Positions 29,494 through 64,000 of a DNA stretch of 64,000 nucleotides are shown piece after piece. The stretch comes from Eutreptiella sp. 'Long Island Sound 2002' (Eukaryota > Euglenozoa > Euglenophyceae > Eutreptiales > Eutreptiaceae). Every line of letters starts with the position of its first letter. Positions within the stretch are counted from its first letter, which is position 1. The position numbers were made by a program, and so were the translations under genes. The notes beneath the pieces are model-generated. The model was not told where the DNA came from. It ran no database searches and saw only the letters and a list, made by a program, of their open reading frames with translations. The stretch is from NCBI GenBank assembly GCA_964036045.1, contig OZ038383.1:9378430-9442429 (forward strand), read 5' to 3'.

Positions 29494-29524
<31 letters not shown>

Positions 29525-41475: not shown

Positions 41476-41514
41476 AAAATGTAGGGAAGTCCCTTGAATT
41501 AGCCACATTCTGAA

Positions 41515-41676: not shown

Positions 41677-41694
41677 ATTGCGAGGCCTCGAAAT
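41677..41694. repeat. Palindrome M3 of the short transposon
   Basis: ATTGCGAGGCCTCGAAAT, one mismatch. Confidence 0.8.
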
Positions 41695-41740
41695 CCAAAA
41701 TGTGGGTAAATAGGTCCATTTTCCCACAAAAATGTTTTTT

Positions 41741-41762
41741 GGATTGCGAGGCCTGCCAATCC
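41741..41762. repeat. Palindrome M4 of the short transposon
   Basis: GGATTGCGAGGCCTGCCAAT plus CC; 22 bp, imperfect at two paired positions flanking the centre. Confidence 0.75.
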
Positions 41763-42059
41763 CTGATGAGGAAGTGTGAAGAGGCATCCCTTTTGTACAA
41801 ACTTGTTGAAAAAGTGACTTTTTTGAGACACATTGCGGCTTCGAAAAATCGTTGACAAAAAAGTGGGTATTTGGTAGAAGTTGCCCACCATATTTTTCTG
41901 TTCATTTTTCTAACGACCCCGGTACAAAAGTGTACCTGTTTCGGCCGCCTAAGGTATAAAAAAGACCCAATAACCACCGTTTCTTCACTTCTTGCTTTTT
42001 GGTTGATTAGCTAGGTGAAGACTAGTCACTAGCTGCTTAACTGTGGCTTTGCATCACAC

Positions 42060-42315
42060 TGTAAGGCCTTTTGCTATCCCTGGCACGGCGAACACCAAGA
42101 AGTCCAAGCACAGACCTTGTCGAGACAAACGTTCAAGATATTCCACACGGGTTCATGTCATATCTACAAACATGTAAACATAAACTGTGTTTCCAAATAA
42201 CACACAAATTCTTGAATCTCCCATTATCATTTACGCACTCACGCGCGACCTATATTCTGCGGCATTATACCTCGCAGCCTGCTTCTGTGGGTTATGGGCG
42301 CATGTACACCTTACA
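42060..42315 (-). repeat. LTR (3' LTR for the minus-strand gene)
   Basis: 256 bp, TGTAAGG...CCTTACA; differs at only a few positions from 44672-44927, so the insertion is fairly young. Confidence 0.82.
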
Positions 42316-44111
42316 TCCCCCTCCCAAGACAGGTAAGTAGGTAGGTAGGTATCTTCGGGAGCTCGGGATGCCTCCTTTGACAATGCAGGAAGAAGGTCTT
42401 ACCAAGGGGACGTCCTGTCCCTCCCACTGCCCTATGTCATGTGCCTCTTGAGCCGCTCCCGCATGTGCTTGGGAAGGCATTGTCGCGGCCACCCGGTCCA
42501 TGTGTCCCCTCCCAAGACACTTGAGGGGTCCACAACCACCGAAAAGTGGCTGACATGCCACCATAGGTGTGCATGCGCATCAATAAATAAAAGTGAGATC
42601 TCACAAAACAGAAATCAGTAGGTGGCGGAGAGCCCGGCACTCCCGCACCCACAAGCATAACCAATCATGCATATCAAAAAAAAGAACATGTATGCACCCA
42701 TGCTCAATGGGCCGATCAGCCCCCAGGCTGCAGTGGCAGCCCACTGAAATACATGAATATATATGCCACATCAAGGGTACACACAATCCAAGAGTCACAG
42801 TGGTGACCACAAGCGCTAACCCACAACCATGTTTCAAAATGACCACAGAAAATAGTCACAGCAACTACCATAGCACAGACTGTACCAAGGCACGCAACGC
42901 ACCACTGCACACACGGGACTCCAACCCTTTTTACAGTAAAAACTGGTTACATGGCGTGCGCGGCCAATGAGCACTAAATAACAGGCTTGCCAAAAACACA
43001 CCAACGCCACACAAAAGGCAGTGAACTTTCTGCAAAACCCTGTCCACGCTGAAAAGAAAAAAGACAAAGAAACCCAGAGCAACAAAGTGGAGCCTCAAAA
43101 TTGTTCTCGTAAATGACCTGAAGTCACTGAAAAAAACATTCCTTCGTATTTACAGCAAGGACTTCTTCAAAACCCATCGTTAACTTACTCAGGACTCCAG
43201 CTCTCGCCATTGCCTGTGAGACAATACACAAAACGAAAAGAAAAAGCACGAACCAGCAAACTAGCGAAGAAACGAAGAGACAAGGTCGAACATCCGAAGC
43301 TACGCTCTCTCAAAAGATGCCAGAGAACGAATCAGGTGCAAAAACGGAAGCAAGAGGGTATGTCAGTGTGTACATACGAATCAAAAGACGATGGCGCTGA
43401 AGGAAAACTGAGCACCAACACACAACTCATTTTGACATGCACGCATCATCAAATCAGATCTCACCATCATACACCACGACGGCACGTACAAGCTAGCCTA
43501 ACAGCGCAAAGGCGCACGTACAAACAAGCTTAACAACGTTCGCAAAGCACAGGCCTACACGGCTTAACACACCACAGCAAGCATGCATGCACGAGGCTGA
43601 AACAAATCGCACGACGCGCGGACGAACACCACGAACGCACGACTACGCAAGTGCACCATGAAGCAGACACACCCAAAAAAAACTTGTCCACTCTTCGGCG
43701 CCCACTTCTCCTTGTGACTGAAACACCAACTTCTCACTGACATACGAAGGAAAACAGTACAAACAAAAGCAGCAACAACAGAAAACGAAACAGCGAAGCA
43801 CGCAAACACATACCAGAGCTACTGGCATGTGCGGCTTCTCTCGCGTTTGCACCATAAATCTGGGAAACAGCTGCCTTGAGAACAGCTCACTTGAAGTCTA
43901 TCAACAAGGGAAAAAAAGATAACCAAGGCGCACGCAGGGAGCACAGCTAGGAACGCACCCACGGCCTACTAAATGCCACTCGCAGCACGTGAAAGGAGCA
44001 AGGTGCTACACAAAAACGGCCACGGAGCAAAAAAAACACACGGAGCGCAACGCTACTCGTCTAAAAGAGACAACACACGGGTCGGATTGCTACTGTTCCT
44101 ACTACCTGCAC
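42316..44111. other. Interior of the LTR element without recognised genes
   Basis: About 1.8 kb between the gag-like gene and the left LTR. The plus strand is A/C-rich from 42600 to 44050, giving Lys/Arg/His/Thr-rich frames that I regard as compositional. A GTAGGTAGGTAGGTA microsatellite lies at 42334-42350. Confidence 0.5.
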
Positions 44112-44618
44112 TTAATGAGTAGTGGTACTGCTTTTAAAGGAGCGCCCCTTGCCACGCGTTCCTCCCTTGTCCGGCTTTTGCGGCATCCGGTTCAGAGCGC
44201 TCGTTAGAGCGCGATCTTCAGCCCTGGCGCTCATCACCTTGACCTCAGACTCCAAGGCCTCCACAGTGGTTTCAAAGGAGCCCCAAAAGGACTCCGCTGC
44301 TTGTAGCTGTTCAACAGCGCGGTCTACGTGTCGGTGGTACTCTTCAGTTTCAGCCCGCACTTGCCGTAGGCTTTGAGAGTCACTTTCATACCACGACTGG
44401 CAGCCTTTCTCGTGGCTGTCAAAACACTCCTGTCGCTCCTTCGCCGTCAGCAAGTAGTCCAGCTCACCCAAGCTGTAGTCTCCAGTTTTGCGGCAGTATT
44501 CTCGAACTGCCAGCGTGTTGATCTTGACATCAACGACTCGCTGGTGTTGGATCATGTTCAGCAGTTTTGTTTTGGAGTAGTTTTCAAAGTTCTTCACAGA
44601 CGCAACGTCGCAGAACAT
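44112..44618 (-). CDS. Gag-like protein of the LTR element
   Basis: A 168-residue frame with start taken at the first Met after the LTR (MFCDVASVKNFEN, 44618); the open frame extends back into the LTR. The N-terminal part is basic/helical (SKTKLLNMIQHQRVVDVKIN), the middle is charged and heptad-like (QVRAETEEYHRHVDRAVEQL and following, a probable coiled coil), and the C terminus is Lys/Arg/Gly-rich (KGGTRGKGRSFKSS), suited to binding nucleic acid. No CCHC knuckle is present. Position next to the 5' LTR and this layout suggest a capsid-type protein, but I see no direct sequence match to a named gag family. It could instead be a captured host coiled-coil protein. Confidence 0.5.
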   Translation of the reverse strand: MFCDVASVKNFENYSKTKLLNMIQHQRVVDVKINTLAVREYCRKTGDYSLGELDYLLTAKERQECFDSHEKGCQSWYESDSQSLRQVRAETEEYHRHVDRAVEQLQAAESFWGSFETTVEALESEVKVMSARAEDRALTSALNRMPQKPDKGGTRGKGRSFKSSTTTH

Positions 44619-44671
44619 CACAGAAATGACACAGAAACGACGAATTAAAATCCCCGTGGGATCTGAACGTT

Positions 44672-44927
44672 TGTAAGGCTTTTTGCTATCCCTGGCACGG
44701 CGAACACCAAGAAGTCCAAGCACAGACCTTGTCGAGACAAACGTTCAAGATATTCCACACGGGTTCATGTCATATGTACAAACATGTAAACATAAACTGT
44801 GTTTCCAAATAACACACAAATTCTTGAATCTCCCATTATCATTTACGCACTCACGCGCGACCTATATTCTGCGGCATTATACCTCGCAACCTGCTTCTGT
44901 GGGTTATGGGCGCATGTACACCTTACA
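44672..44927 (-). repeat. LTR (5' LTR for the minus-strand gene)
   Basis: 256 bp, TGTAAGG...CCTTACA. The bases just inside on the minus strand read AACGTTCAGATCCCACGGGG, which looks like the T-loop side of a tRNA rather than a normal TGG primer site. Confidence 0.82.
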
Positions 44928-48603: not shown

Positions 48604-50358
48604 TTACGGTGCTACTGCAGCCACCAAATGGACCAACACGTCCTTGACATCCAAAGAAATGTTCTTTTTCTTCAGATAATCCATCCAGACCGTGGTGTAC
48701 CTCGGCACAAAGCTGCTCGGAGGCTCCAACGAGTCCCTGGATGCCGCGAATCCCTGCCAACGGACTTTATAGAGCCTCCCCCCAGGCGTCCCCGGGTCCG
48801 GCTTGTCCGCCAGGATCCTCTCGGCGGTGAAGTCGTCGTCCTCACCCTCGTCGTCCGAGTCCACATCGCCGGCCGTGAACTCGAAGGTGACGGGACGTCC
48901 GCTGGGGTCTGGTGCTCGGGGACGAAGCTGGGTATGGTCGCGGTCCAGGATCTTGCTATCCCCCACACGAACCGCATACACATCCTGCCCGACCTTCCGC
49001 ACGAATACCCCCGGCACATACCAAGACGCCTGCCGATGCCTGGACAGGACATCCTTGTGGTGCCGCTCCACCCACACGGTGTCTTGGAGAGCATACTTCT
49101 GGACTTTTCCCTGCTTGAAGTACTTGGCCCTCTTGTCATGCTCGTCCTGAAGTGCCTTGCACACCTTGGCCGCCGTGTCGTCCGCCTCAGCCATCATAGC
49201 GTTCGCATCCCGGGCCACTTTGCCATGGTTCAACCACGGGAGAGTGCGTGACACTCGATCCCGTAGGAACAGGATACGATGGGGCGACAGTCCAGTGGGT
49301 CCCGGAAGGTCATGGTACGCCTGGAGTACCCTCCACAGCAAATTATACCAATTCCGGCCCGGTTCATCGATGTGCAGCTGGCGGAACTTCTCGAACATCT
49401 GCCGCCCGGCCACCTCAGCCCGGCCATTCGACCGGCTGTGGTACGCCACGGTCTTGGCGTGCCGAATCCCCATGTGCTTGCACATTGTCTTGAACCACGT
49501 CCCCACGAACTGACTGCCCCGATCGCTGCAGATGACAGCTGGGACAACAAAAATCGTCAGCCAATGCCTGATCATGGCATTAGCGACGGTCTTAGCCTGC
49601 AGCCCCACTCCATGCTTGTGGTTCTTGTCCTTTTTCTTGGACTTCTTGCCCGGGACCGCCACGATATACCCGCTGTGCCTGTCCACCGCCAGGATGACAC
49701 AGTCATAGGTCTCTCCGTCCACGGTGACCTCAGGCATGGCGAAAACATCCATGGCCACGGACCGCATAGGGGCTTCCGGTATAGCCGTGTACACCGGGTT
49801 GCCAGCCGTGGAGTGGTTGGGGCTCTTCGTGGCCCGACACACGGCGCAGTCGCTGCAGTACTTGTCCAGGAGGGCGTAGTACCCCGGTGGGAACTTGAAG
49901 CGCCACTGCAGGTCCTGCTGCATCTTGTCCCGACCAGGATGCATGAGCTGGGCGCTATGCCAGTGGTCAATGAGCTCCTCCAATAGCTTGTCCTTGAGGA
50001 ACAGTTTATCCTCATCCTGGGTCAAGCCCTCAGGCAATTCATCGTCCGACGGGGCGCTCACGGCATTCCAGTACTTGCTCCAGTGCTCGGATGCCCCATA
50101 GTCATCCGACCAGTCCTCTGTGAGCACCAGCCTGACTAGCTCTACAGGGGCCACCATCCATTGCTCGAGGGTTTCCTCTCGAATAGCTTGGACTCGGGCG
50201 CCCCGGAACTTGGCCAGGTCCGTACCTTTTGCCATCACCACAAAGCACTTGACCCCCTCTTGCTCCATTGCCTTCTCCATCTCGATGATGCGCTTGGCCT
50301 CCTCGGTCTCCTCGGCGTCCCCATGGCTGGATATGTCCATCCAAGCCTTGCCCGCGGG
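48604..50358 (-). pseudogene. Gypsy integrase with chromodomain
   Basis: The first possible Met is at 50340, but the frame is continuous with the RNase H block upstream apart from one TAA (50359-50361). Contains the zinc-binding HHCC motif (HSAQLMHPG, then CSDCAVC), the catalytic triad as AMDVF, CSDRGSQFVG and SRSNGRAEVAG, then a basic linker and a C-terminal chromodomain (AERILADKP, LYKVRWQGF, then EPPSSFV). The chromodomain tryptophan and aromatic positions are kept. All key integrase residues are present, so this part decayed little. In related elements (from memory) the TAA position is a sense codon in the WA-x-PA context. Confidence 0.93.
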
Positions 50359-52776
50359 TTAGGCCCATCGACTGAGGCAATCCGCCACAGTGTTGTCCTT
50401 TTCCGGGACGTACACGACGCTGAGATCAAACTTGGCGAACGTCTCATGCCATCGGGCCCTCCTTGCCGCCGGTCCCGAGGGGGTGTCGACGTGCTCCTTG
50501 TGCCAGCTCTGCAAGGATTGATGGTCCGTGCAAACCACCACCGGTTGCAATCCGATGTGGCCAGACCACTTCCTGAGCGCACAAACAATGGCGTACGTCT
50601 CCTTCTCCCTCGCGGTCCAGGTTCGACGTTGGCCCTCGGCCAGGATCCGGCTCCAAAACGCCACGGGTACGTGTGACCCGTCGTCCCGGACCTGCTCGAG
50701 GACTGCACCTACAGCATATTCCAGGGCGTCCGTCCGTAGCATGAATCCCTTGTCCGGGTCCACCAGGAATAGCCCCAGCTGCCCCAGGAGTCGCTCCTTC
50801 AGGCGGCTGAACGCATCTTCGGCCTCAGGGGTCCAGGCAAGCTTCTTCTTGCTCCCCTTCCGGCCGTCGAACTTCCCCACCTGCAGCATCTTGTGCAGCG
50901 GCCCCGAGAGTTCCGCATACATCCGGACATAGCCCGAATAGTAATTGCAGAACCCCATGAAGGACCGGAGGTCGCTGATGGTCTGGGGTCTCTCCCAGTG
51001 GTGCAGGGACGCCAATTTCCCAGGCATGGGACGGCATTGCCCGTGACCAACCACGTGACCCGCAAACTCCACTTCCTTCACGAAGAGTGAGGCTTTGGTG
51101 GGCTTGCACACCATGTTGTGCTTGTCCAGCTCGCTGAGCACTCGGTGCAGATCCTTCTCATGCGCTTTGATGAGCTCGTCCTCAGTCATGTCCTCCGTGC
51201 CGGACCCGATGATGATGTCATCCACAAAGGGATCGGCACAATCCCGGACAGGACCGAGTAGGTCCTCCATCATGCGCTGGAAAGTGGCGTTGCCATTCTT
51301 GGCGCCCATAGGCACCACTTTCCACTGCATGGGCCCGAGCGGCGTCGACATCGCTGTGCAGGGCCTGGAGTCCGGGTGTAGCGGCATCTGGTGATAGCCA
51401 TGTTTCAGGTCTAACACCGTGAAGATCCGCTTTTTCTGTTGCTTTTGGAGGATGGCGTGGATCAGAGGAAGCGAGTACGAGTCGTGCTCGGTTTGCTCGT
51501 TCAATCCCCTGTAATCCACCACCAACCTCCACTCACCCTTCTCCTTCTTGGGCACGATGAAGGCTGGGCTGGCCCACTCACTGTCGGGGGGTTCGATCCA
51601 TCCCCGCTCAATGAACTCGGCCAACAACTTCTTCATGGCCTCGGCCCGATCGCCCTGAAGTTGGTACTCCCGATGACGATAGATCTTGGGGTTCGGCTTC
51701 AGCTTGATCCTCGCTGTGCCAAACCTCCCACGATCTGGAGGGTTCTTGTTGGCGACGCCACTGAATAGCCGCGGATAGGCATTGATCAGCCTCTCCTTCA
51801 GCTCGGCGACCTTCGGGTTCTCCTGGGCCTCTTCAGCCGCTTGCTTCGGTATCGATACAACCGACCGCACTGCGGTATAGGCCTCTTCCGGGTCTGAATC
51901 CGACTTCTCCTCGTCCGATATGCCGTCTTCATCGTCGTGGGGTGCACTTCCCACCGATAATCTTCGGAAATTTGCGGCGTCAGCCTGGTTCTTGTCGCTA
52001 TCGGCCCCCATTCTTGAAAAATCCCACGTCGGCGGGTCCGACCCAACCGGACCATCGTATTGGTCCGCGATGTGATTCATGACCCTCGCCACGAACTCAT
52101 CCTTCTCGTACTTGCCGGTAACCAACATCTTGTCATCCCACCAATGCGGAGATGTGACCATGGCCCGCCTCTTCTTGGCTGCCACACGGTCGTGCATCCC
52201 CATCCGCATGTAGTTGACGACGTTGTCGATCTCGGCGTGGGACAGGACGTCAATGCCATCAATTGGCTGATCCGTCCCCTCCTTGGGCTCAAACATGACC
52301 TTCATGGGCACCGCCTCCAGCCTACGGATGAATGCTTCATCAGCCGTGGGCTGGGCTTGCGCCCCATCCACCAGGAAAGCCTTGGTACCCCACGCTTGAC
52401 CCGGGGAGGGCATTGACACACCCTTGGCGTCGATGAACAGCTCCTCCTCTGGCCTGAATGACATCTCGTTCAGGGTGATGGAGTCCAGCGTCGACTTGAG
52501 ACCTTCCAGCGGACATGGGGTGGATCCTATGCCGGTTATGACCAGGATCCCCTTCGCCCTATCCGCGACGATCTTTCCCACCGTACGTCTGGTATTGTCC
52601 AGGGAACCATGGCAATACATGGGCCCCCACTCCTTCAGGCACCAATGCCTGTGCCAGGCTGAGTCTCCTCGATGCCAATGCCTCCTACACTTCCGCAAAA
52701 GTGGGGCATCCCGGGAAGCGAAGACGTCCGTCTCGGGCGCTTCGGCTCCCAGCGTCTGGATCATCCTGTCATACAC
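50359..52776 (-). pseudogene. Gypsy reverse transcriptase and RNase H
   Basis: An 805-codon block in the same frame as the protease and integrase blocks. It opens with a segment (about residues 15-85) containing TDVFASRD and IVADRAKGILVITG, which resembles the distal part of the RNase H region of DIRS-like elements. The RT follows: WRLVVDYRGLNEQ, FTVLDLKHGYHQMPLHPDS, and the catalytic FVDD (usual form YVDD or FVDD). Gypsy RNase H motifs come next: LRTDALEYAVGAVLEQ, ARE-KETYAIVCALRKW, CTDHQSL and a DCLSRW end. Catalytic residues are intact; the block is bounded by TAG and TAA stops. Confidence 0.95.
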
Positions 52777-53215
52777 CTACGGCGCCATTCCATACTCCGT
52801 GAGCTGAACTCCGCGGTCTCCTCTGGACTTGGCACCCACAGCTTGCACCGCTCGGACGATCCGATCCTCTTCCTCAGCATTCCATTCGGATGATCCGCAT
52901 GCACGATCCGTGGACAGCCATGTGAGGCATTCATCATCCTCCCGGACCAGCGTTGCGCGATGGGGAAGGGCGCCAATGGCATTTGCCACCATGAAGTCAT
53001 ACCCCATGATCATATCCCAATCTGTAATGTCGGCCACATAGAAGTTCCCGGATACAGTGCTTCTCTTCGCCAAATCAGGGCGGTTCAAGCGCTCATGCTC
53101 CCAGAATTCCATACTGATAGTGGCCTTATGGGTACCACCACCCATAATCTCTCCATTGGCCACCTTCAGGCGCACCGGTCTACGGCTGGGCTGCAGGGAT
53201 TCCTCCTTGAACAAC
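52777..53215 (-). pseudogene. Gypsy protease, downstream part
   Basis: Begins right after the transposon end (left target copy 53211-53215) with LFKEESL, then SRRPVRLKVANGEIMGGG and MIMGYDFMVANAIGA, the second half of a retropepsin-like aspartic protease. The active-site DTGA is on the other side of the insertion at about 60100. Ends at an in-frame TAG (52777-52779), after which the frame continues into the RT block. Confidence 0.9.
53211..53215. other. Target site duplication, left
   Basis: ACAAC next to the left terminal repeat; matches 60076-60080. Confidence 0.93.
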
Positions 53216-53238
53216 CTTAGCCCACGCAAACTGCACCC
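53216..53238 (+). repeat. Left terminal inverted repeat
   Basis: 23 bp identical to the reverse complement of 60053-60075. A 9-bp-arm hairpin (TTTTGCGCG/CGCGCAAAA, 53241-53263) follows immediately. Confidence 0.96.
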
Positions 53239-53409
53239 TGTTTTGCGCGCCGAACGCGCAAAAAAGGACCGGTTCGCAACAGGGCAAAAAAACTATTTTT
53301 TTGGATGTTTCATGAACGTGATTTTAGACGTAGTGAAATAAATTGCTTTTTTCGTGTTGTGCAACTCCGTGTTCCTCAATGTGACGTTTTTTACATTTCT
53401 CTGGCGTTC

Positions 53410-53435
53410 TGAGTGCGCGAGGCCTCGCGCACTCA
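53410..53435. repeat. Palindrome P1
   Basis: A 26-bp perfect palindrome containing GTGCGCGAGGCCTCGCGCAC; left untranscribed or leader region of the transposon. Confidence 0.96.
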
Positions 53436-53631
53436 AGATAGCGAAAGCAGAGTTTATCACGAAACGTAACAACCCGTAAGGACTGGCTTTTGCGGAAATA
53501 CGCAGCTCCCACACGGTATTAAAATTAGGATTGTGTTGACCAGGGAGCATTGGAAGTGTATGGCTGTCGGACTTCCCATGTTAGGGGAAACACATGTACT
53601 GTAAAGTGAAAATAAAATACAAATTTAAGCA

Positions 53632-53663
53632 ACCTGAGTGCGCGAGGCCTCGCGCACTCAGGT
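53632..53663. repeat. Palindrome P2
   Basis: A 32-bp perfect palindrome, the longest of the set, with the same 20-bp core as P1. Confidence 0.96.
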
Positions 53664-53822
53664 CACGTTATGTATTGAATTTTCAGACTGGATGTGACGC
53701 GTACAATTGCAGGTACAGTACGAGACGGACAAACACGTTTGATTTTTCCGGTGTATATGTGTGTAGACACCATGTTGATCAGATTCAACACGGTATAGAA
53801 CATTGTTTCCCCGGAAACAATC

Positions 53823-53844
53823 AGTGCGCGAGGCCTCGCGCACT
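53823..53844. repeat. Palindrome P3
   Basis: A 22-bp perfect palindrome, same core, about 460 bp before the first ORF. Confidence 0.96.
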
Positions 53845-54307
53845 TAAATGACAGAAGAAAATGAAAAAGCGATCAAGCTAGGCTACGCCGGTATTTACAT
53901 TCCCCTTCACGTCTACCACCTGTGACAGTCGATTATACATCGGTAACCTTCGTCATATTTTTCAGGGGATCAGGGGAATGATTTGCTTTTTTCCAACAGC
54001 CACTCGATGGTAGACGTGTCCGGTTTTAATAGCGGCGTAGCCTTCGTTGACCGATAGACATGGTTTTTTTTTCCAACTGGGTTTAAAGACGGACGCAGAA
54101 CAGGAAATTGTGGTTGCGAAAACAGTTTGCGGTTACTGGGAACGGAGCGCACGCAGACACCAAATCCAATTTGCGGCGACAGCACACGCACCAGAATGAC
54201 GACAGGAAAAGGCCAGATGTTTTCTAATACATTTTTTTTAAAGGTCGCTGTGCGAAACGATAACCAACATATGTGCGCAAATATAATTCCACAGAGAAAG
54301 ACGCAAA

Positions 54308-56305
54308 ATGCCACTTCGAGCCAGAAAATCCGTAGAGCAACGCATGATTGCAGAAGTAAGCAAAGGAGCAGCAGCACTACGAGAGGCATGCGCGGCAGAA
54401 CCAGCATACCAAACAGCAGGTGACCTATGGAAAGGACTGAAACGGAACGACCTGGCGGCGCAACTGGTGTTAACATTTGCACAGCGACTCAGGTTCAACA
54501 AAAGAACGCGCCACAGTTTACCAGCAGCTAAACGACAGGAGGACAAGCGCTGGGTGCGCATTTTGCAACAGGAGGGCTGGAACCTGTACCTGTTGATGCG
54601 TCAACGGGCAGTACCAAACAGGAAAAAACCGGGAAACACAACAGGGTACCTGACGCAAACAGAAAGACGAACAAAAGTACGACTCGGGCAAGCAGACGCT
54701 GCCGCAGACACAGTGGACGAACAGGCAGCAGCAGCACTTAAAGCAACTTGGTCACTGGTGCTTTCGTCGTGTTGCGTGCTGTGGATAGACAACTGGTACC
54801 GGGCACAATACACGACACACCCAGACGAAAGTGACCGGTCGCAAAACTGTACTGCAATGGCAGTACTTCAACTGAAACAGAGGCCCACGTATTGGGCAGG
54901 ACATCCAGCCATTGAGGAACTGGCAGCACGGATAACGACAGTCGCAAGGGCTCTGCAACAGCGTGAACGGAGAATCCACCAGACATTGCGTGACATGGGG
55001 TATGCAGATGGGTGTACACCAGACGCTGGAAACGTGAGAGCGCCGTTGGATGTGAGGAGGGATGCAAGGACTGTACAGGCACCGGTGTGGCGCCCGTTTG
55101 CCCTGTCCAAAGAGAAGGTAACTTGTGGTGTTGGTCTGTTAAACTTGTTACACTTTGCAAGGGACGTAGCACAACAGACAAACAGAGTTCTACCGCTGTT
55201 GGTTGACGAAAACATACACTACAGGGTACTAAAGTTGTTGTACGGTGCCAAGAACCAACGATGGAACATGCGTGCATACCTGCGTTACGTGCCTGTAGTT
55301 TACGGTGTCTGGCATGCCTACAAGTTCGTTGTTACTCATACTTTTCGGGTGTTCTGGCCTATTCTAACCTACCTACGGAAAGGTCTGCTACGACCTGGTT
55401 CCACCATACTATCATACCCCAAACTGATAGTTATGGAAAAAACTATTGCTGCGCTGATGCTTGCCACACCCCGAATACTACGCCCGTATCGGCGCAAGGC
55501 ACAAGCTGCAACCGCGATCAGTGGTCGTGACACTACGCATGCCAACAGGGCAGCAGTGGCAAACGCAGTCTTGCATTTGTTGTCGGATTGGTGCCCGTTG
55601 TTGTTGTACTTGGGTCACCTGGTACGGGAGTGCAATTGGTCGGGGGAAAACAACGCTACAGGGACACGAGCTCAGGAGGTGTTGCAGTTGAGTTTGTGTC
55701 TGTTGCGGAGGCTGCGTCGAGGACCGTGTGACACCATACTGAAGTACGAGCGCACAATCATGTGCACATTGTTGTACAACAGCAAGTGGCACCAGGACCT
55801 GCCCGGTCAGGCACACTCAGAGGAGTTTGGAGAAGGGATGTTGAGCAAGCTGGTGCGGGACAAGGCGAGAAACACGGGTTCTGTTACTGTTCAGGAGGTG
55901 GAAAACCATTACTTGTTGCTAAAGGTTGGTCCTGGTGGAAAACGCGTGGGGGTGCAAAACGTTCCCAAGAACCTGGTACACAGCATGCGACAACGACTGA
56001 CCAGATTTTTGGCGACAGACCGGATATGCATGGCCTATGTGGAATGGGAGTCGGACAGAGTAAGCACGGTTGCACCTTCTTGGCCGCGGAGGTTACCGAG
56101 ATTTCCGCCCTCACCTACACAACCCCTCGGTTACGACCACTACCGGCTACTTGGTCACAGCGTACTAGATGCCCTCATTGACCAGAAAACAAATCCCACC
56201 AACCAACTGAAACGGAAACTGGATGCTGTTGTGGGACAGAGAACAGATATGGATGCCGACAGACAGGAAGCAGCAACACGCAACGTGCGGCAACGCTTGC
56301 GGTAA
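54308..56305 (+). CDS. Transposon ORF1, 665 residues, candidate transposase
   Basis: ATG at 54308, TAA at 56303-56305, one exon. Strongly basic with an Arg/Gln-rich N terminus. The central part (about residues 296-360) contains LLVDENIHYRVLKLLYG, then VPVVYGVWHAYKFVV and THTFRVFWPILTYL. This conserved-looking acidic-then-Trp/His/aromatic layout could hold a catalytic core, but I cannot name the family. The C-terminal third contains a region rich in Arg-Leu and ends KRKLDAVVGQ...NVRQRLR. No zinc finger, signal peptide or clear membrane segment. No palindrome occurs within its 1,998 bases. It sits 5' of the spliced gene in the same orientation and could share its promoter region (53436-54307). 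Role as transposase is inferred from context only. Confidence 0.72.
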   Translation: MPLRARKSVEQRMIAEVSKGAAALREACAAEPAYQTAGDLWKGLKRNDLAAQLVLTFAQRLRFNKRTRHSLPAAKRQEDKRWVRILQQEGWNLYLLMRQRAVPNRKKPGNTTGYLTQTERRTKVRLGQADAAADTVDEQAAAALKATWSLVLSSCCVLWIDNWYRAQYTTHPDESDRSQNCTAMAVLQLKQRPTYWAGHPAIEELAARITTVARALQQRERRIHQTLRDMGYADGCTPDAGNVRAPLDVRRDARTVQAPVWRPFALSKEKVTCGVGLLNLLHFARDVAQQTNRVLPLLVDENIHYRVLKLLYGAKNQRWNMRAYLRYVPVVYGVWHAYKFVVTHTFRVFWPILTYLRKGLLRPGSTILSYPKLIVMEKTIAALMLATPRILRPYRRKAQAATAISGRDTTHANRAAVANAVLHLLSDWCPLLLYLGHLVRECNWSGENNATGTRAQEVLQLSLCLLRRLRRGPCDTILKYERTIMCTLLYNSKWHQDLPGQAHSEEFGEGMLSKLVRDKARNTGSVTVQEVENHYLLLKVGPGGKRVGVQNVPKNLVHSMRQRLTRFLATDRICMAYVEWESDRVSTVAPSWPRRLPRFPPSPTQPLGYDHYRLLGHSVLDALIDQKTNPTNQLKRKLDAVVGQRTDMDADRQEAATRNVRQRLR

Positions 56306-56316
56306 CTGACACCCGC

Positions 56317-56338
56317 AGTGCGCGAGGCCTCGCGCACT
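56317..56338. repeat. Palindrome P4
   Basis: 22-bp perfect palindrome, 11 bases after the ORF1 stop. Confidence 0.96.
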
Positions 56339-56372
56339 AAACGTTATGAAAACAGGTATGTAATGCGATGTG

Positions 56373-56394
56373 AGTGCGCGAGGCCTCGCGCACT
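56373..56394. repeat. Palindrome P5
   Basis: 22-bp perfect palindrome inside the possible leader intron. Confidence 0.96.
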
Positions 56395-56553
56395 GAGTAC
56401 TTCGCTAAGTGCCGTGGATTAAGTCACAACAAAGACGTTTGTGGAACAGATTTCCGAAAACGACCTGCAAAATACCGTTTCGACTGATTTCAGAGTTCAA
56501 ATGACCGTGTTTCATGTCATGCCATTTGCCCTTTTCAGGTATTGTTTGGCATC

Positions 56554-57324
56554 ATGAGTGAACCAGGGTCGCCAGAACGTCCAGTAACAGACGCAGAGGC
56601 CATGGAGTCGTCACCAGGGACCGACCACGGGGACACGCCGAAGAAAGGACGCAAGAAGAAGGGTGAGAAGAAAGCAATACCGGAGATGAAGCTCACAGTC
56701 GAAGTGGCACAGTGGCTGCGGCAGGAGAATGGTAAAGCCGTGAAGGTAAAGATTGCTGATTTGAAAATTGACAAGACCAAGGAGCGCGGACAGATCCGAT
56801 CCATCAACTATGACGACGTTGCCAGAAAAGTGGCAGGATACCAAGCACTGCCACCAGCTGGACCGTTGCGCATAACGGCGTGGGAGGATGGTGGTATGAC
56901 TCGCTTCGCTTTCGATCGAAGACGGTTCTTCTTTTTGCTTCGGTACATGATTTGCTTTGCAGATGGCTCCCTTTACGTTCTGAATGGTCAACATGGCACA
57001 GAAACATGCAGAAAGATTCAGCAACAGCGTCTCGAAGAAGGCAAAGAATTGGAGGATTGGCAGGAGTTTTGCTACGTTGACATTCTGAAGTACGAAACGC
57101 CTTGGAGGATCCGTGCCAAGGTTGCAGGATTGCAACAAGCTGGCAGCCAGTCTGTGACGTGGATTCCGCTGTCCGAGGCGCTGGACAACATGTTGTTGTA
57201 CATTGAGGATCAGAAGCGGGAAAAAGAGCCACAAGATTTCGAGAGGTTCAAGATTGCTGTTGTCCAAGCTGCCGTCAACTCTGCGTTTCTTGCACCCGAG
57301 GCTTTGGAGGAAGCAGGACATACA
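56554..57324 (+). CDS. Transposon ORF2 exon 1 (257 codons): basic N terminus and ParB-like motif
   Basis: Starts at ATG 56554 (MSEPGSPERPVTDAEAM); an upstream TTG in the same frame is less likely. A Lys-rich nuclear-localisation-like tract (KKGRKKKGEKK) is followed by a helical region, then FADGSLYVLNGQHGTETC. That motif resembles the NGQH/DGQHR signature of ParB/sulfiredoxin-fold proteins, in which the motif binds nucleotide or acts in a nuclease; this is my inference from the motif and its position after a beta-rich segment. Ends in phase 0 at ACA/GTATGT. The full protein is about 904 residues over four exons. Possible roles: DNA-binding partner of ORF1, or the transposase itself. Confidence 0.75.
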
Positions 57325-57397
57325 GTATGTATTCGTGTATCGCACGGTTACAGTGCGCGAGGCCTCGCGCACTCCATGACACTGTCTCCCCCCGCAG
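57325..57397 (+). other. ORF2 intron 1, carries palindrome P6
   Basis: 73 nt, GTATGT...CCCCCCGCAG. Removing it joins phase-0 codons and keeps a continuous reading frame; reading through leads to the stop near 57456. Confidence 0.92.
57352..57373. repeat. Palindrome P6
   Basis: 22-bp perfect palindrome in the middle of intron 1. Confidence 0.96.
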
Positions 57398-57701
57398 GAC
57401 TCGACATTCAAGAATTGGAGGGACATCTTCTCCCTGGCGTATTACTGCGGCCGTGAGGCGGTTACTGGTATGAGGAACCTCGAGAGTAAGAGCAAGAAAG
57501 AGGACGTTACAAGGAATGCCTTCAAGAGGCTGGAGGGGCTGCATCTACCGAGCCTATTGCAGAAAGTCTGTGCGCACATGAACCTGAAGGACTCGACCTT
57601 GAAGACCACCCAGAACTACATTGACGCGCAGATTACGGAACAATGGGTTATTTTCCATCTTGACCATCCGGACAATACGCAGCATGTCAACCAGACCGCA
57701 G
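57398..57701 (+). CDS. Transposon ORF2 exon 2
   Basis: 304 nt encoding DSTFKNWRDIFSLAYYCGRE, a Lys/Leu-rich helical region and EQWVIFHLDHPDNTQHVNQT. The frame follows from exon 1 and continues into exon 3 (phase 1). No named domain. Confidence 0.85.
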
Positions 57702-57772
57702 GTATGCGTCAGTGTCGCAGCTGCAGTGCGCGAGGGCTCGCGCACTTCACCACGTTTGTCACATCCGTACAG
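57702..57772 (+). other. ORF2 intron 2, carries palindrome P7
   Basis: 71 nt, GTATGC...CATCCGTACAG. Splicing joins GCA-G to CT-GCC and keeps the frame open. Confidence 0.92.
57725..57746. repeat. Palindrome P7
   Basis: 22 bp; the centre is AGGGCT instead of AGGCCT, otherwise perfect. Confidence 0.93.
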
Positions 57773-58470
57773 CTGCCGATGCGAAGATCCGAGCAGAAGT
57801 CGCAGCACTGGGCACGCCGCAATTGAAAATTGGGCTTGGAAATTGGGGTTATTGGGTGGACGCAAAAAGTACGAAGTTTCGGTCGCCCTGGCCAAAATGG
57901 AAGACGTTGCTCACTGCACCTCTGTGGCGCACTGGGGACAAGGGCGCACCTCCATTACCACAGACGTTGGCCGTGCGGAAACAACTGCAAAGGAAGGTTG
58001 AGGCACCATCATCGGCACCTTCACAGACACAGCTCAGTAATGGCGATGTGATCAATGTCTCCAAGTCGGACGAGCAAGGGATCAAATACGCTTTGACAGC
58101 CTGCCGTATTGAGAATATTGAAGAGACACCGCCAGGCCGTTTCCGGGATCTGCAGTACCCGTTGTGGATCATCAACGCTGACCTTTTCATTGAATACGAC
58201 TCTCCAGGATTTGTTCCGAAGTGGCTGTTCGATGTGATGATGCTGGGGAAAGACGTCATTTTCTATGGCGAGGCTGATGTTGTGCACCGTATTGGCCGCG
58301 AAATGCAGAGGCTCTGGCGTATGGAGAAGGACAAGGATCCAACCACAGTGCCATTCTACCATGTTCGGTTGCCGGTGTACTCTTGGTTATCGGGTCCCGT
58401 GACCAGCAGTACGTATCAGTTCGACGAGCACTGTATGTGGATCGGAACAACGAGTCGCTGGGATAAGCAG
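57773..58470 (+). CDS. Transposon ORF2 exon 3
   Basis: 698 nt. Encodes a Trp-rich start (LGNWGYWVDAKS), a Ser/Gln linker, then a compact region with LWIINADLFIEYDSPGF, FDVMMLGKDVIFYGEADVVH and TVPFYHVRLPVYSW. The mix of hydrophobic beta-like strands and acidic residues suggests a folded, perhaps catalytic, domain. No family recognised. Ends in phase 0 at AAGCAG/GTATAT. Confidence 0.85.
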
Positions 58471-58567
58471 GTATATCTGCTTCTTTCGATTGTTACGATG
58501 CCGTTGTGTGCACGAGGCCTCGCGCACTGCTGCCTCCGTTATTCGTCTATATTCATCACATTTACAG
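58471..58567 (+). other. ORF2 intron 3, carries palindrome P8
   Basis: 97 nt, GTATAT...CATTTACAG. Removing it links exon 3 to LPNYVSYSAGHFEEM in frame. Confidence 0.92.
58507..58528. repeat. Palindrome P8
   Basis: 22 bp with two changes in the left arm (TGTGCACGAGG), the most diverged copy in the element. Confidence 0.9.
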
Positions 58568-59509
58568 TTGCCGAACTATGTGTCGTATTCCGCTGGACAT
58601 TTCGAAGAGATGCAAGAGAAGAACCTCGGCGGTTTCATGCCTCTGATTCACGTGCTGTGGTACCTGGACAGATACGTTTTGTGCAGTGGGCTTCCTGATG
58701 CAGTGGTTGTTGTGGACGACACGCCTGCCATGGCCGCAAAGATTGCGATGTCTGACCTCAAAACTAAAGTGGCGTTTCTGGCTGTGTCAACGATCAAGCA
58801 AAAGGACCTAGGGAATGCCGTTGGAGGTGCTCTGCAGCATGCAATCGTGATGCGGTACATGCTGGAGGCCGATCAGACGGAGCAGGGAGCAACAGCTGCA
58901 ACTTGGGATACTCAAGAAGAGTGGCTCCAGCGTGGCATTCCACTGTGGGTTTTGGACAGCAAACGAGGGCATGAAGGGCACCAGCAGGTGCATGCTGCAG
59001 AAGCCGTCCAGCAAGATGTCGTGACTGAGGCCCCCGCTGAAGACACTGAGCCTGGTGCGCCTGCACCTACCTTGCCAATGCAAGCCAAGATGAAGAAGAC
59101 TGCCAAAGTTGTACCAACTCAGGGTACTGCAGCCGGAAAAGGAACACCCTCGAGTACCAAGAAGCAAGCAAAAGGGAAAGAGAAGGAATCGGACAAGCCC
59201 GCGGAATCAGACGACGACGATACTGACGAGGAGTCAGAAGAAGACGATCTGGAGCAAGTACTGGAGACCCAGCAGAAGCGCAAGCGGGCATCCGCCTCTC
59301 ACTTCGATGCAAGCAGCCCCGACTCTGGTAAGGAACAGTCCAAGAAGAAAGCGAAGACTGCTGCCAGTGCTACTGCAGAGTTCAAGCCGCCCTCGCGTTC
59401 TGGTACCCTGCCGTCTCGAGGTACCGTTGCCTCTCCAAGTGGGACAAGTACAACAGCAAGAAGCCTGGATTCCAGGTTGGCTAAGGTTGCTGGACCGAAG
59501 AAGAAGTAA
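58568..59509 (+). CDS. Transposon ORF2 exon 4, acidic and basic C-terminal tail
   Basis: 313 codons to TAA (59507-59509). The first third continues the folded region (LGGFMPLIHVLWYLDRYVLC, then LPDAVVVVDDTPAMAAKIA and LDSKRGHEG). The rest is a disordered tail rich in Ala/Pro/Lys with an acidic block (ESDDDDTDEESEEDDLEQ) and nuclear-signal-like KKRAxx/KKAKTA stretches. The stop overlaps a good donor (AA/GTAAGT), and TTTTTGCAG at 59537-59545 could act as acceptor, so an alternative C terminus is possible; in that reading P9 would become coding. Confidence 0.85.
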   Translation: MPNYVSYSAGHFEEMQEKNLGGFMPLIHVLWYLDRYVLCSGLPDAVVVVDDTPAMAAKIAMSDLKTKVAFLAVSTIKQKDLGNAVGGALQHAIVMRYMLEADQTEQGATAATWDTQEEWLQRGIPLWVLDSKRGHEGHQQVHAAEAVQQDVVTEAPAEDTEPGAPAPTLPMQAKMKKTAKVVPTQGTAAGKGTPSSTKKQAKGKEKESDKPAESDDDDTDEESEEDDLEQVLETQQKRKRASASHFDASSPDSGKEQSKKKAKTAASATAEFKPPSRSGTLPSRGTVASPSGTSTTARSLDSRLAKVAGPKKK

Positions 59510-59550
59510 GTCACCATTAACCCAAGTGTTACGCCTCTTTTTGCAGTCAT

Positions 59551-59574
59551 GAGTGCGCGAGGGCTCGCGCACTC
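59551..59574. repeat. Palindrome P9
   Basis: 24 bp, centre AGGGCT like P7; 3' of the ORF2 stop. Confidence 0.93.
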
Positions 59575-59708
59575 GCCTTCGACGCGAATGCAATTATATG
59601 CCCTTAAAGGGTTGTACATTTTTGCCAAGCTTTTATCTCAGTGTTTGTACGTTGTGCACTTCGTGTCCTGTTTTTGTTGCCCTCTGTACACAATTGTTTC
59701 CATGACCT

Positions 59709-59734
59709 TGAGTGCGCGAGGCCTCGCGCACTCA
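59709..59734. repeat. Palindrome P10
   Basis: 26-bp perfect palindrome, same core; mirrors P1 in length and lies close to the right inner inverted motif. Confidence 0.96.
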
Positions 59735-60052
59735 GGTACACAAAAAAGCAATTTATTTCGCAGGACAAACATAGGTGCAACTGGAGACCCGCAGAATGTC
59801 ATATTTTGAAAATGAGCTCCCGAACAGGCACGCACCAGTTGGCTTTTGAAATACAAAAACGACAAGATTGGTAAAACACACCCCTCAAATCAGACAAAAT
59901 AATAGTTTATTTTGATAAGCAAAAAGTGGAAAAAAGCAGCAAATTGGGTAAAATTGTATTTTTTCGGTGGTATCTGGGCCATGTGTGTTGCAAATGTCCA
60001 AAAAAAATAGTTATTTGGGCGGTCATTTTTTAGGTCCTTCTCTTCCAAAAGG
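59735..60052. other. Right non-coding arm of the transposon
   Basis: A/T-rich, no gene. Contains the reverse complements of the left inner motifs GAAATAAATTGCTTTTTT and ACTATTTTTTTGGA. Spacing between the two motifs is about 240 bp here but about 25 bp on the left, so one arm has gained or lost sequence. Confidence 0.75.
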
Positions 60053-60075
60053 GGGTGCAGTTTGCGTGGGCTAAG
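60053..60075 (-). repeat. Right terminal inverted repeat
   Basis: 23 bp, reverse complement of 53216-53238. Confidence 0.96.
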
Positions 60076-60080
60076 ACAAC
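60076..60080. other. Target site duplication, right
   Basis: ACAAC, the second copy of the 5-bp duplicated target in the gypsy protease. Confidence 0.93.
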
Positions 60081-60352
60081 CCTCTCCGGACCAGGCTCAC
60101 CTGGGCACCCGTATCCACCAAAACATCCACCACAAACTCCTCTTGTCCGCACCGTACACGCACCTTCAAGTGCAACTGCCGCTCGTCACCATGCGGTGTA
60201 TGGACGACTCTCACGGCATGCAACTCTAGCACATCCGGGTGCATCAGGACTTCGAGGGTATGGTCACAGATGGTTAATTTTTGGCTGCTCCTGCCCGTCC
60301 ACGGGGCTCTCTGTGGTCGCTCCTTCCTTCTTGCCACGTCCCTTGCCCACAT
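60081..60352 (-). pseudogene. Gypsy protease, upstream part with DTGA
   Basis: The minus strand encodes LKVRVRCGQEEFVVDVLV followed by DTGAQVSLVRRGL, the active-site half of the aspartic protease, and stops inside the transposon end. The frame at 60352 differs from that at 53215 by one. Removing 6,865 bases (element plus one target copy) brings the two into phase, which supports the insertion model. A basic, low-complexity stretch precedes the protease. Confidence 0.9.
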
Positions 60353-60760
60353 AAGCTTCCCTTGGCAGGGCGCTCCAGGGGTTGGGAGTGGCGAAACTCA
60401 GTGGTTTTGTCTCTTCTGGAGCCTTCTTCGGCACCCGATGTGCTCTCGCTTTCTCTGGGATTCCACTGTTTTTAGGAGGAGAGACCTCCGAGGTCCCACT
60501 CCCGTGGGGGCTCCTCTAGACATGGCCTGCCGCAGCTCCCTCCTGCTGCGATCCGCTCAGACTTTGTCCACCACGTTGCTGGGCTTTGAGTTCCTCCAAC
60601 GTCCTCAACATGTCCTCAGCAAACTCCTCGATCGACCTCACGCGTCGGTCTGGGCCGGGTCCTCCACCATACCCTTTTCCTCCGCCATTCCCTTGGCCCT
60701 TTCCTTGGCCTTTTCCACCGTCTCCGCCCTTTGCCTTCCTATCGGCAGGCAGGAGAAAAG
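60353..60760 (-). pseudogene. Gypsy gag C-terminal remnant
   Basis: The minus strand encodes a Gly/Lys/Gln-rich run (KGGDGGKGQGKGQGNGGGKG), then DRRVRSIEEFAEDMLRTLEE and LKAQQRGGQS, and a stop near 60518. A Gly/Lys-rich nucleic-acid-binding tail plus helix is plausible for the gag end of this element. Gag and protease are in different frames, as expected for a frameshift or from decay. The sequence stops being gag-like near 60750, where the unrelated plus-strand ORF begins. Confidence 0.6.
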
Positions 60761-60764
60761 GTAC

Positions 60765-63700
60765 GACAACGAGTGGGGCACAGAGGAAGACCTTCTCTGG
60801 GAAGACACCTGGAAAGGCACCGCGGACGCCTTCCTGGAGGCAGCAGCCGAAACCTACCCCCGCCCGCCCGGGGACACCAGACACGGCCTCCACGCCCTCC
60901 TAGCGTTCCACAGCTGGAAACACCGCCACACCGTCACCCTCCACCCCCTCGACCACAATCCACACCGATGGACACCTGAAGACGACGCCACAGCCACCAT
61001 CACCGTACAGCAAAGCCCCGAGAACCCGGAGGAATACCACATCACCTGGGACGATCCAGCACCCCACCCCCCCGCCTCCCCCACCCTCCCAGATGTCTTC
61101 GCCACCATCAGTGCAGAGCTCCAGGAGGCGAAAGCCCCCCAGCAACTGGACGAAGAGATGCCCCAGGCACCATCACCATCAACCACACAAGACGAACCCC
61201 GCACAGAGCCCCTCACCCACCCCATCACCACAATGGAGCTCCCCCCACAACACCGCACCACCCCAGACCGAAACGGGTTTCGAGACCTGCCTAGGGAATG
61301 GGCGGTCCACAACGGCACACTCCAGTGGGACGAAATCACACCGGGCCTCCAAGCCATCCGCCTCCACTCGATCACAGAGCCCACCACCACCTGGGCACTA
61401 CCGACAGACCGCCACCACCTCCTCCTCACCGTCCAAGGCGATGCCACGATCACACCCACGGAAGGAGACCCCGTAACAGCAGCCCCCGCCCACGCCGTCC
61501 ACATACCCCCGCAAGCATCGTCGGCACCTATGACGGTACATCCAGGCCCCACCCCTTGGCAGGCCATCGTCATCACCTACCCCGCCCCCAATGACCACAC
61601 ACACACCTGGCAGCAACGATGGGAGGACATCCGAGGGGACCTCCTCCAAGAGCACCTAGGGCTCACACGCACCAACCACACCCTACAACCGATGCGAGGA
61701 GTAGGCCAAGCGCCACACGGCATACACGCCCCGGGAGTATGGGCGTACGCCACACCCATAAACCCACAAGCAGCGGAGGACATCAAGACCGCCCTATCCA
61801 TCCAGCAAGCCCAGACCAAAACCCCGCACCGCAACACCCAACGAGGCTACACAATTTGGTGGGCATACCAAGACCATGACACCCTCATCCCCCAACCGGA
61901 GGCCCCCCCTCTAGACACCAACACCACCGCCCTCCTCCAAGCCGCAGCAGCGGCAGCCACACAGGTAGGGGCCCCGGAAACCTGGGGCCCACAATACCTG
62001 GTCGAAACCAAAGTGGCGCCCCACGCGAAGGGCCAAGACAAGCCCCCAGCACCGAAGCCGCTTCACCCCCCGCTCAAGCTAGACCCGACGGAACACACCC
62101 CCCAGGATGAATGGGCGACCCACTACATCATCCCCCACACCACCACCCGCAAGAACGACGCCGCCAAGATCACCGTCACCCGCCACCTCCCCCACACCAC
62201 ACAGGTGTATGAGCTGACGGCCCCCAACGTCCTCGTCACCCGTCGCCGACACGACGAGCGATACACCATACAGGCGGAAGGGGCCGCTGCGACCACCCTG
62301 TACACATGGGCAACACGGGGGGACCTCCCACACCCCACCCTCCACCACGCCCCCTCCTGGCCCAGCCCCTTCCACACGGCGGACCGCCCCAACAAGAAGC
62401 CCAAACACACGGGTGTGCACACCCACGCCCAGGAGGCCCAGCACCGACACGAAGCGAGGCGCAAGGCCCGCACCCTCCACGACGACCACACCATCCCCCG
62501 CATCGGCGCCCCCCCCGCCAGGGTATCAGATACCACCCACAACCGCACGATCACAGGCATGACCACGGACTGCCTGAACCCAGCGGCGTCACGGGCAGAC
62601 GCCGTGTGGATCAGCGAAGGGCGCTCCCACACACGGGCGGTGGCGCGCCTCCACAACATCCAACCCCACAAACTCCAGCGCGCCGTTGGACCCTTCGCCG
62701 TACACGTCACCCCGTGCGGCATCGATCACCCCCGGTGTGAGCATCATGACCCGCCCTGCTCCACCCCATGCACCTCGCCCCTGCGCCAACCGCTGCCGGC
62801 CCCCACCATCACGGGCAACATGTACCTGGGCACCGTACCGGGAGACCCGGGCATATACATCCTGCCCAACAGGTCCAGGGAACACGCCATCCCCCTCCAC
62901 GGTGTAGAATTCCTCGCCCTGGGACCACCCCCACCAAAACACCAACACCAACACATCCCGGGGGACAAACGGACACAGGCCCCAGACGGGCGAAAAAAGG
63001 CCCACCAACGCGCCCTGGCCCACATCACCCTCCACCCCGCAGCGCACCTACCAAAGGACTTCGGCACGGAGCGCCACATCATCCTGGAGGGGCAAGCCCA
63101 CCACATCATCACAGCCGCCCTGTACACCCTCGCCGCCCACGAACGCCACTGGGACCCCACAACCATCCCAGCAATGCCCCCACCGCCCCAAGGCCCCAAA
63201 GATCCCGTCACCCCCTTCCACATCGATCAACTCCTAAGCCGCAAGGCCCCCCCACACCTCCATCCCTCCAGGATACCACTAGCCGTCGCATCGTGGGACA
63301 CCCTCGACACCCCCCCCCAAAAACCCGCCATCCACATCCTCAAAGCGGACACCCAAAGGTGGGTCCTCCACTGGGCACACGGAGTCCTCATGGGGGCCCA
63401 GGCCTATACCCCGGAAATGGACCCGGAAGACCCCCCACGGGGCCAGCAGCGACTCCTCCAAGCCACCACCCTCACAGGCCGCGAAGGCGTCCCCTGGGAA
63501 GCCCTCCACACAGCACTCTACTGGGCTCAAGGCTCCCCCAACGGCCCGGACACACCGGAACCCACAGAGGCCTGGGTCATGCAGGCCAAGACCATGAGGA
63601 ACTACCACCTACACCACCCCTTCGACGACAGCCCCGCCGCACTGCCATGGCCAACAGATCCCCCGGAGACCGTGCGCAAGCTCGCCGACATCATACGCAG

Positions 63701-64000
63701 CCACGCAAAAGCGAAAATGCAAACACCGGCAGAACCCCCACTGAGGGATCCAGACCAGCAAGCAACGCACCCCTTCTTCAAACCCCATGCCCCGCTACCT
63801 CCAGTCCCACCCAAGCGAACGAGACGACAAAGGGGCGCACCCGCCCCCAGCCAAGCCGGAAAAGCAGCGACCTCCCGATCCCCCGCACCCCACCCGACCC
63901 ACCCGGCGAACCCGGACCAAGCATCCTCGTCATCCTCCCTCCCACCAATACCACCGCCCCACCCGGACCAAGCATCCTCGTCATCCTCCCTCCCACCAGT
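60765..64000 (+). CDS. Very long ORF (>1,075 codons), open at window end, function unknown
   Basis: Reading codons from 60765, the plus strand has no stop to base 64000. The frame is also open upstream to an ATG at 60522 and beyond, but that part lies over the antisense of the gypsy gag, so the natural N terminus is not here. Base composition is very GC-rich with C at most third positions, unlike all other genes in the window. The protein is rich in Pro, Thr, His and Ala. The first 120 residues include HALLAFHSWKHRHTVTL and a later EEYHITWDD, a layout faintly like the end of an OTU-type protease. A Cys/His cluster is seen near 62715-62775 (CGIDHPRCEHHDPPCSTPC). The C-terminal part visible here is basic and ends in a 51-bp tandem repeat (copies at 63911 and 63962) encoding PDQASSSSSLPP. 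Most likely the upstream part of a large mobile-element polyprotein; no polymerase domain is inside the window. Confidence 0.72.
63911..64000. repeat. 51-bp coding minisatellite at window edge
   Basis: Two copies of CCCGGACCAAGCATCCTCGT plus following bases, period 51 (17 codons), in frame with the long ORF; the array may continue past the window. Confidence 0.85.

Follow-up and report, generated by a model that had tools for sequence, protein, structure and literature searches.

VANDAL elements belong to MuDR, and hAT elements have CAG/TAG-like ends. In Arabidopsis, as far as the available extracts of PubMed Central (PMC) article PMC10398659 go, VANDAL elements have a second element protein, VANC, and carry family-specific motifs in their non-coding parts, which differ between related families; the targets of VANC are tandem repeats of a short motif. 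A 5-bp target duplication is described for the DNA transposons of the hAT5 type, and duplications of 2–5 bp for the CMCT clade, that is, CACTA/EnSpm, Mirage, Chapaev, Transib, Plavaka and others (PMC12730594, in the sections used here). Inverted repeats and target duplications are also found in many introner families (excerpts of PMC9860276). Here, we describe E1, an element at positions 53216–60075 of a 64,000-nt stretch of the genome of Eutreptiella sp. ‘Long Island Sound 2002’ (contig OZ038383.1, positions 9,378,430–9,442,429; hereafter, the window). E1 resembles VANDAL elements in having a second protein, encoded by open reading frame 2 (ORF2), family-specific motifs in non-coding parts, and motifs that differ between related families. 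However, instead of tandem repeats, the E1 group carries several 20–22-bp palindromes, which are also present in inferred introns, E1 has CTTAG ends and a 5-bp duplication, and the role of its ORF2 is putative. In our judgement, E1 is probably, albeit with real room for doubt, an autonomous, recently active transposon of an unrecognised superfamily with a putative co-evolving palindrome-binding protein, perhaps ORF2.

An earlier note on this DNA, made from the sequence without database searches, had described perfect 23-bp inverted ends and ACAAC flanks on both sides of E1, and both features are present. The terminal inverted repeats (TIRs), CTTAGCCCACGCAAACTGCACCC at 53216 and 60075, were identified by end comparison and scan and occupy 53216–53238 (plus strand, beginning CTTAGCCC) and 60053–60075 (minus strand), and direct reading shows the copies of ACAAC at 53211–53215 and 60076–60080. 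The whole window was scanned for CTTAG...CTAAG pairs with identical 5-bp flanks at a spacing of 60–12000 bases, without using the palindromes. The strict scan returned exactly two pairs, E1 and a second element, E2 (41109–41953), whereas the longest perfect repeat in the same scan of 100 base-shuffled windows was 7 bp. E1 lies within a Ty3-like retroelement with reverse transcriptase, RNase H, integrase and a weak chromodomain (48604–53215 and 60081–60352), which is split in its protease-like part. Removal of E1 together with one ACAAC reopened a single retroelement frame of 251 amino acids (aa) across the site, whereas the frame was broken when both ACAAC copies were kept. Perfect TIRs of 23 bp in E1 and TIRs of 24 and 25 bp in its relatives E3 and E4, as well as a fixed 5-bp duplication at independent insertions (13 of 15 E1 copies and 16 of 16 further E2 copies), are properties of class II TIR transposons. 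E1 is thus a TIR DNA transposon, cut-and-paste-like, that inserts with a 5-bp staggered target duplication. An alternative placement of its ends was dropped because other genomic copies agree on the same ends.

These copies come from a 2.28-Gb assembly, in which L-numbers denote fetched stretches. All 40 scored left-end matches (the best 40 of 712 candidates) were identical over 185 bases, and 20 of these places were fetched. Both ends were present in 15 of the 20, and 13 of the 15 had an identical 5-bp duplication on both sides, each with a different sequence, which supports the mobility that the earlier note had ascribed to E1. Counting against it, two copies (L018 and L022) had both ends and no duplication, and in five of the 20 the right end was missing within the fetched stretch. 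Four of the 13 copies with a duplication carry internal deletions (L010, L013, L019 and L020), and L009 and L010 have a flank in common and resemble a single duplicated locus. The 67 ORF1 loci that were scored were all full length (665 aa) without stops, and 56 of these, including that of the window, shared an identical top score; because only the best-ranked 67 of 8569 candidates were scored, the share of intact copies cannot be deduced from these counts. The recent activity that had been suspected from the intact frames is supported by a mean divergence of 0.09% among 11 full copies, including that of the window. Among these copies, 10 substitutions were exonic and 19 non-coding, although exons make up 69% of the length (p = 1.7e-4), which we count as selection on the coding parts and in favour of an autonomous element. 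Such intact, near-identical copies imply that E1 may still move, which is open to assay. The full-length copies L016 and L018, located at different places, share the same ORF1 frameshift and the same ORF2 stop; hence, a defective line has apparently moved in trans, although for L018, which lacks a duplication, another route is possible.

Two apparently intact plus-strand genes had been noticed in E1, and both were borne out, with the qualification that ORF2 is open only when three inferred introns are removed. ORF1 (54308–56305) is a single open frame of 665 aa. ORF2 comprises 904 aa after removal of introns of 73, 71 and 97 bp (57325–57397, 57702–57772 and 58471–58567), which were inferred from GT...AG and the frame alone. 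Its four exons occupy 56554–57324, 57398–57701, 57773–58470 and 58568–59509, the last encoding a charged, low-complexity C-terminus.

Four relatives of E1 were found. E2 (plus strand) is 845 bp long and has no recognised genes, CTTAGGCGGCCGA ends with 29 of 30 end bases paired, the duplication GTATA, and four AGGCCT-centred palindromes or semi-palindromes. It was first spotted by its palindrome and inverted repeat and was recovered independently by the end-and-duplication scan. Across the genome, 40 E2 copies (the best 40 of 654 candidates) scored as full or near-full at 84–100% identity; the 16 further copies with perfect duplications mentioned above were fetched from these 40. Eight near-identical copies on contig C6 mostly have one common flank, and five of the eight passed the strict duplication test. 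The copy in L037 has the same GTATA duplication as the window copy. E3 (L034:2540–3713; 1174 bp, duplication TAGGA, 24-bp ends) also has no recognised genes; the same scan recovered it from sequence flanking an E2 copy, and a second E3 left end is present in L036 at 2540. E4 (L056:2272–7297; 5026 bp, duplication ATTCA, 25-bp ends) lies on contig C6 (G000:C6), 7.7 to 2.7 kb upstream of the start of the window. An open frame of 752 codons on its minus strand is 34% identical to ORF1 of E1 over 525 columns (E = 3e-73), and an E4 frame shows similarity to a small segment within the second half of ORF2 (23% over 43 aa, E = 0.002); in this copy, ORF2 seems to be without its first half and to contain a stop near its end. 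E5 (L058:2100–7900) is a decayed coding relative, the ends of which were not found. Its ORF1, interrupted by stops and with an end piece inverted to the rest, shares 51% identity with ORF1 of E4 over 360 columns, the first half of its ORF2 matches ORF2 of E1 (E = 2.6e-4), and the second half is 40% identical to that of E4.

E2, E3 and E4 have the same terminal CTTAG and the same duplication length as E1, and E4 also has homologous genes. Judged from sequence, the tie of E1 to E4 is the homology of ORF1, and that of E2 and E3 to E1 is the palindrome core. Applied to a contiguous 104 kb, the strict scan yielded exactly E4, E2 and E1. No such element was found in three sampled 10-kb stretches or in the flanks L057 and L059. 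A scan under relaxed conditions, allowing one mismatch in ends and duplication and requiring 14 of 20 end bases, gave two weak pairs, one in L053 and one in the window (38756–44677), which were taken as chance.

The ten palindromes listed for E1 in the earlier note are present as ten 22-bp copies, seven of which have the exact 12-bp core, and the other three a single core change. Three copies lie upstream of ORF1 (53412–53433, 53637–53658 and 53823–53844, the second extending to 32 perfect bp with its flanks), two between the genes (56317–56338 and 56373–56394), one in each inferred intron (57352–57373, 57725–57746 and 58507–58528) and two downstream of ORF2 (59552–59573 and 59711–59732). Thus, all ten are non-coding, an arrangement reached in 2 of 200,000 simulated random placements (p ~9e-6), and each of the six non-coding blocks of E1 holds at least one copy. 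The palindrome is centred within 3 bases in each intron, with 27/24, 23/26 and 36/39 bases on either side (p ~3e-4).

The position within introns raises the alternative that the palindromes act as RNA, that is, as hairpins that aid the splicing of short introns or feed small RNAs, and not as protein-binding DNA sites. We consider this quite improbable. In its favour, in addition to the centring, random placement restricted to non-coding DNA hits all three introns in only 2647 of 200,000 trials, E5 carries a palindrome copy roughly where intron 2 is located, the 22-mer forms a predicted stem of 9 bp (-14.8 kcal/mol, z -3.5), and intron 1 yields a more stable fold than its shuffles (z -2.8, 1 of 200). 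However, for introns 2 and 3, many shuffles fold at least as well (z -1.1, 30 of 200, and z +1.2, 177 of 200, respectively), seven of the ten E1 palindromes lie outside introns, and E2 and E3 keep palindromes without recognised genes. In addition, the intron 3 palindrome has a core change private to the window copy, at a position, 58512, that is G in 10 of 10 other full copies. The position at intron centres also recalls introners. However, the repeated unit of E1 is a 22-bp palindrome found inside and outside introns, and an interpretation of the palindromes as introners was dropped in view of the seven copies outside introns.

Comparison of the five elements revealed two types of palindrome, with the core GCGAGGCCTCGC in E1, E2 and E3 and CTGGSCGAAATTTCGSCCAG in E4 and E5, at comparable non-coding places. 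The four AGGCCT-centred copies of E2 compare with 0.16 expected, and none of 5000 resamples reached four. E3 has one 50-bp near-perfect palindrome that contains the 18-bp centre of the E1 palindrome. Of the 12 copies of CTGGCCGAAATTTCGGCCAG in E4, five precede ORF1, three lie between the genes, three follow ORF2 and one is located within ORF1; neighbouring copies within clusters are spaced by 68–71 bp, for which we have no explanation. In E5, CTGGGCGAAATTTCGCCCAG occurs in nine copies with at most five mismatches, of which one is perfect, whereas five shuffles gave none. CTGGGCGAAATTTCGCCCAG differs from the E4 palindrome by one change per arm, so that the symmetry is kept. Four of the E5 copies are upstream, two between the genes, two downstream and one at about the position of E1 intron 2, where it follows a donor-like site, GTATGC. 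Three degenerate E5 copies have a change in one arm in common (CTGGAAG... or its reverse complement). Altogether, 10 of 10 copies in E1, 11 of 12 in E4 (relative to the ORF1 and ORF2 frames) and nine of nine in E5 (relative to the matched coding stretches) are located outside coding sequence. The 104 kb contain 20 perfect palindromes of at least 18 bp, of which 10 are in E4, seven in E1, one in E2, one in E5 (an approximate assignment, as the limits of E5 are not exactly defined) and one elsewhere. The latter, GGAAGTACCAGCTGGTACTTCC, is at 17448–17469.

A further alternative is that the palindromes are sites of a host DNA-binding factor involved in transcription, chromatin or replication, which the elements recruit, while ORF2 has a different job. 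The core common to E1, E2 and E3, in spite of differing ends and interiors, speaks for this, and the retention of the E1-type core in E2 and E3 would be just as compatible with a host factor that this group uses. On the other hand, E4 and E5, which have homologous genes, carry a different palindrome. The 12-bp core also does not occur in the window outside E1 and E2, and its inner 8 bp occur once; three arbitrary 10-kb stretches contain no perfect palindrome of at least 18 bp and one partial inner core only, and the flanks L057 and L059 likewise contain no such palindrome. We therefore regard recruitment of a host factor as unlikely.

We next turn to the proteins and their place among known families. 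From the alignment of E1, E4 and E5, ORF1 appears to be a putative RNase-H-type DDE (aspartate-aspartate-glutamate) transposase. D161, D300, H336, E377, E441 and E505/E506 are common to E1 and E4, and all except D161 are also kept in E5; D161, D300 and E441 are the candidate catalytic residues, and H336 is conserved. ORF2 has in exon 1 a GQH stretch (LNGQHGTETC in E1, TRGQHIYTAAM in E5), which we presume to be related to ParB-like proteins, although no search backs this tie; a ParB/DGQHR-like N-terminal domain is our hypothesis. Against the 24,736 models of Pfam, to which ORF2 was compared whole and spliced (in the other libraries, exon by exon), ORF1 and ORF2 remained below every curated cut-off. 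NCBIfam and PHROGs gave nothing better than E = 0.1 with ORF1 and ORF2, and a search of the PDB sequences with ORF1 and with exons 1 and 3 of ORF2 gave nothing meaningful (best E = 0.058). Neither ORF1, ORF2 exon 1 nor the E1/E4 alignment of ORF1 had relatives in a viral contig collection, which also contained no exact match to the E1 palindrome, and neither ORF1 nor that alignment had relatives in a genome contig collection, in which ORF2 was not tried. With tblastn, ORF2 exon 1 had no match in phages and plasmids, and ORF1 none in phages; Rfam had no match to the window. Three weak matches were left unused: CDC45 on the charged region of ORF2 (E = 0.004 for the fragment, 0.012 for whole ORF2) and Cyclin_N on exon 2 (E = 0.04), both far under the Pfam cut-off, and a PHROG without assigned function on exon 2 (E = 0.17). 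AlphaFold models built without an alignment were too poor for use (predicted local distance difference test scores of 36 and 44).

In searches of open PMC papers, no element with CTTAG ends and a 5-bp duplication was found, and a search for ParB and DGQHR together with eukaryotic transposons surfaced only a paper on a restriction enzyme. One excerpt does mention CTTAG, for the duplicated target site of a cluster of retrotransposons and not for an element end. The combination is likewise present in none of the family descriptions compared, as far as the extracts of PMC9587614 and PMC12730594 extend. The earlier reading of E1 as an apparently undescribed DNA transposon is supported, where ‘undescribed’ means no more than not found in Pfam, NCBIfam, PHROGs, the PDB sequences and the open papers.

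It is conceivable that E1 belongs to a known superfamily (hAT5-like, MuDR-like or another of RNase-H type), that its transposase has drifted past detection by hidden Markov models (HMMs), and that CTTAG is a feature of the lineage; we hold this to be rather unlikely. The duplications of 5 bp in hAT5, and of at most 5 bp in CMCT elements, would suit such an assignment (extracts of PMC12730594). However, E1 differs from hAT5 in its two genes, palindromes and CTTAG ends, and no Pfam hAT model appeared for ORF1 of E1 at E <= 10 or of E4 at E <= 5, where the absence of an HMM match is no proof. Indeed, neither ORF1 has a Pfam match near the cut-off, which is still compatible with a distant relation. 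For the CMCT group, including Transib, CTTAG..CTAAG contrasts with ends that are mostly, although not strictly, CA..TG, and there is no sequence match (PMC12730594, same sections). According to the same extracts, the KDZ elements Zisupton and Kyakuja have duplications of 8 and 7 bp, compared with 5 bp in E1 and E2, and the accessible part of PMC9587614 gives a TTAA target for piggyBac and Kolobok, compared with varied 5-mers in E1 and E2. Finally, the literal C/DxxH signature found between the second D and the last E in hAT, P, MuDR, Kolobok and Dada is absent from ORF1, where E1, E4 and E5 read YGVWH with G at the C/D place, a comparison that holds only if D300 is the second D.

The missing signature also weighs against our own reading of E1 as a transposon with a DDE transposase and a palindrome-binding protein, and so do several other points. 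No profile or PDB match to a structure or family backs a DDE fold of ORF1. The three candidate catalytic residues are guesses from two sequences and a decayed one, and D161 is not checkable in E5, as the readable sequence lacks this region. For ORF2, a fold search with exon 1 gave nothing usable, and the proposed ParB/DGQHR-like domain depends on a short motif without a database match. One of the 12 E4 palindromes, a degenerate copy, is the one inside ORF1. Moreover, E1 begins CTTAGCCC while E2, E3 and E4 begin CTTAGGCG. Under the Repbase rule, as given in the extract of PMC4455052, non-autonomous members of a superfamily share the duplication length and, with one mismatch, the first 11 bases; because of this difference, E1, judged by eye, would not conform with the others in its first 11 bases.

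If E1 is nevertheless a transposon with its own palindrome-binding protein, the putative transposase ORF1 would cut at the CTTAG ends, and an element protein, most likely ORF2, might bind the palindromes as a dimer, a role that is less certain than that of ORF1. The palindromes would then serve as an address distributed across the non-coding parts, and marking by the protein would be restricted to its own group of elements. Most likely, this would serve to keep these elements open to transcription, a role that VANC proteins have in VANDAL elements; alternatively, the protein may have an accessory role in transposition. The E1-type core in E2 and E3, which have no recognised genes, would fit mobilisation or activation by the same protein. 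The combination of homologous proteins with different palindromes, located at comparable places, is consistent with joint evolution of protein and site, similar to what the available extracts of PMC10398659 describe for VANC proteins and their motifs. With these palindromes, the way in which selfish elements evolve private recognition codes becomes directly testable. E4 and E1, which lie on one contig at a distance of about 56 kb, represent two groups whose proteins are homologous and whose palindromes differ, and if ORF2 reads the palindromes, a swap of protein and palindrome between such groups would test the code directly.

Several other features of the window were recorded. Large direct repeats are located at 27011–29892 (with a run of N at 28883–29082), 12846–13290 and 35016–36274. 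Just after E2, a 256-bp direct repeat with 98.8% identity (42060–42315 and 44672–44927, 2.6 kb apart) possibly represents the terminal repeats of another element. From 60270 to 63998, an open frame of at least 1243 aa, which is rich in proline and histidine and has a strong GC skew, runs off the window; it may be a low-complexity chance frame or part of a retroelement. A 494-aa open frame with HEAT repeats at 33379–34863 is PPP2R1A-like.

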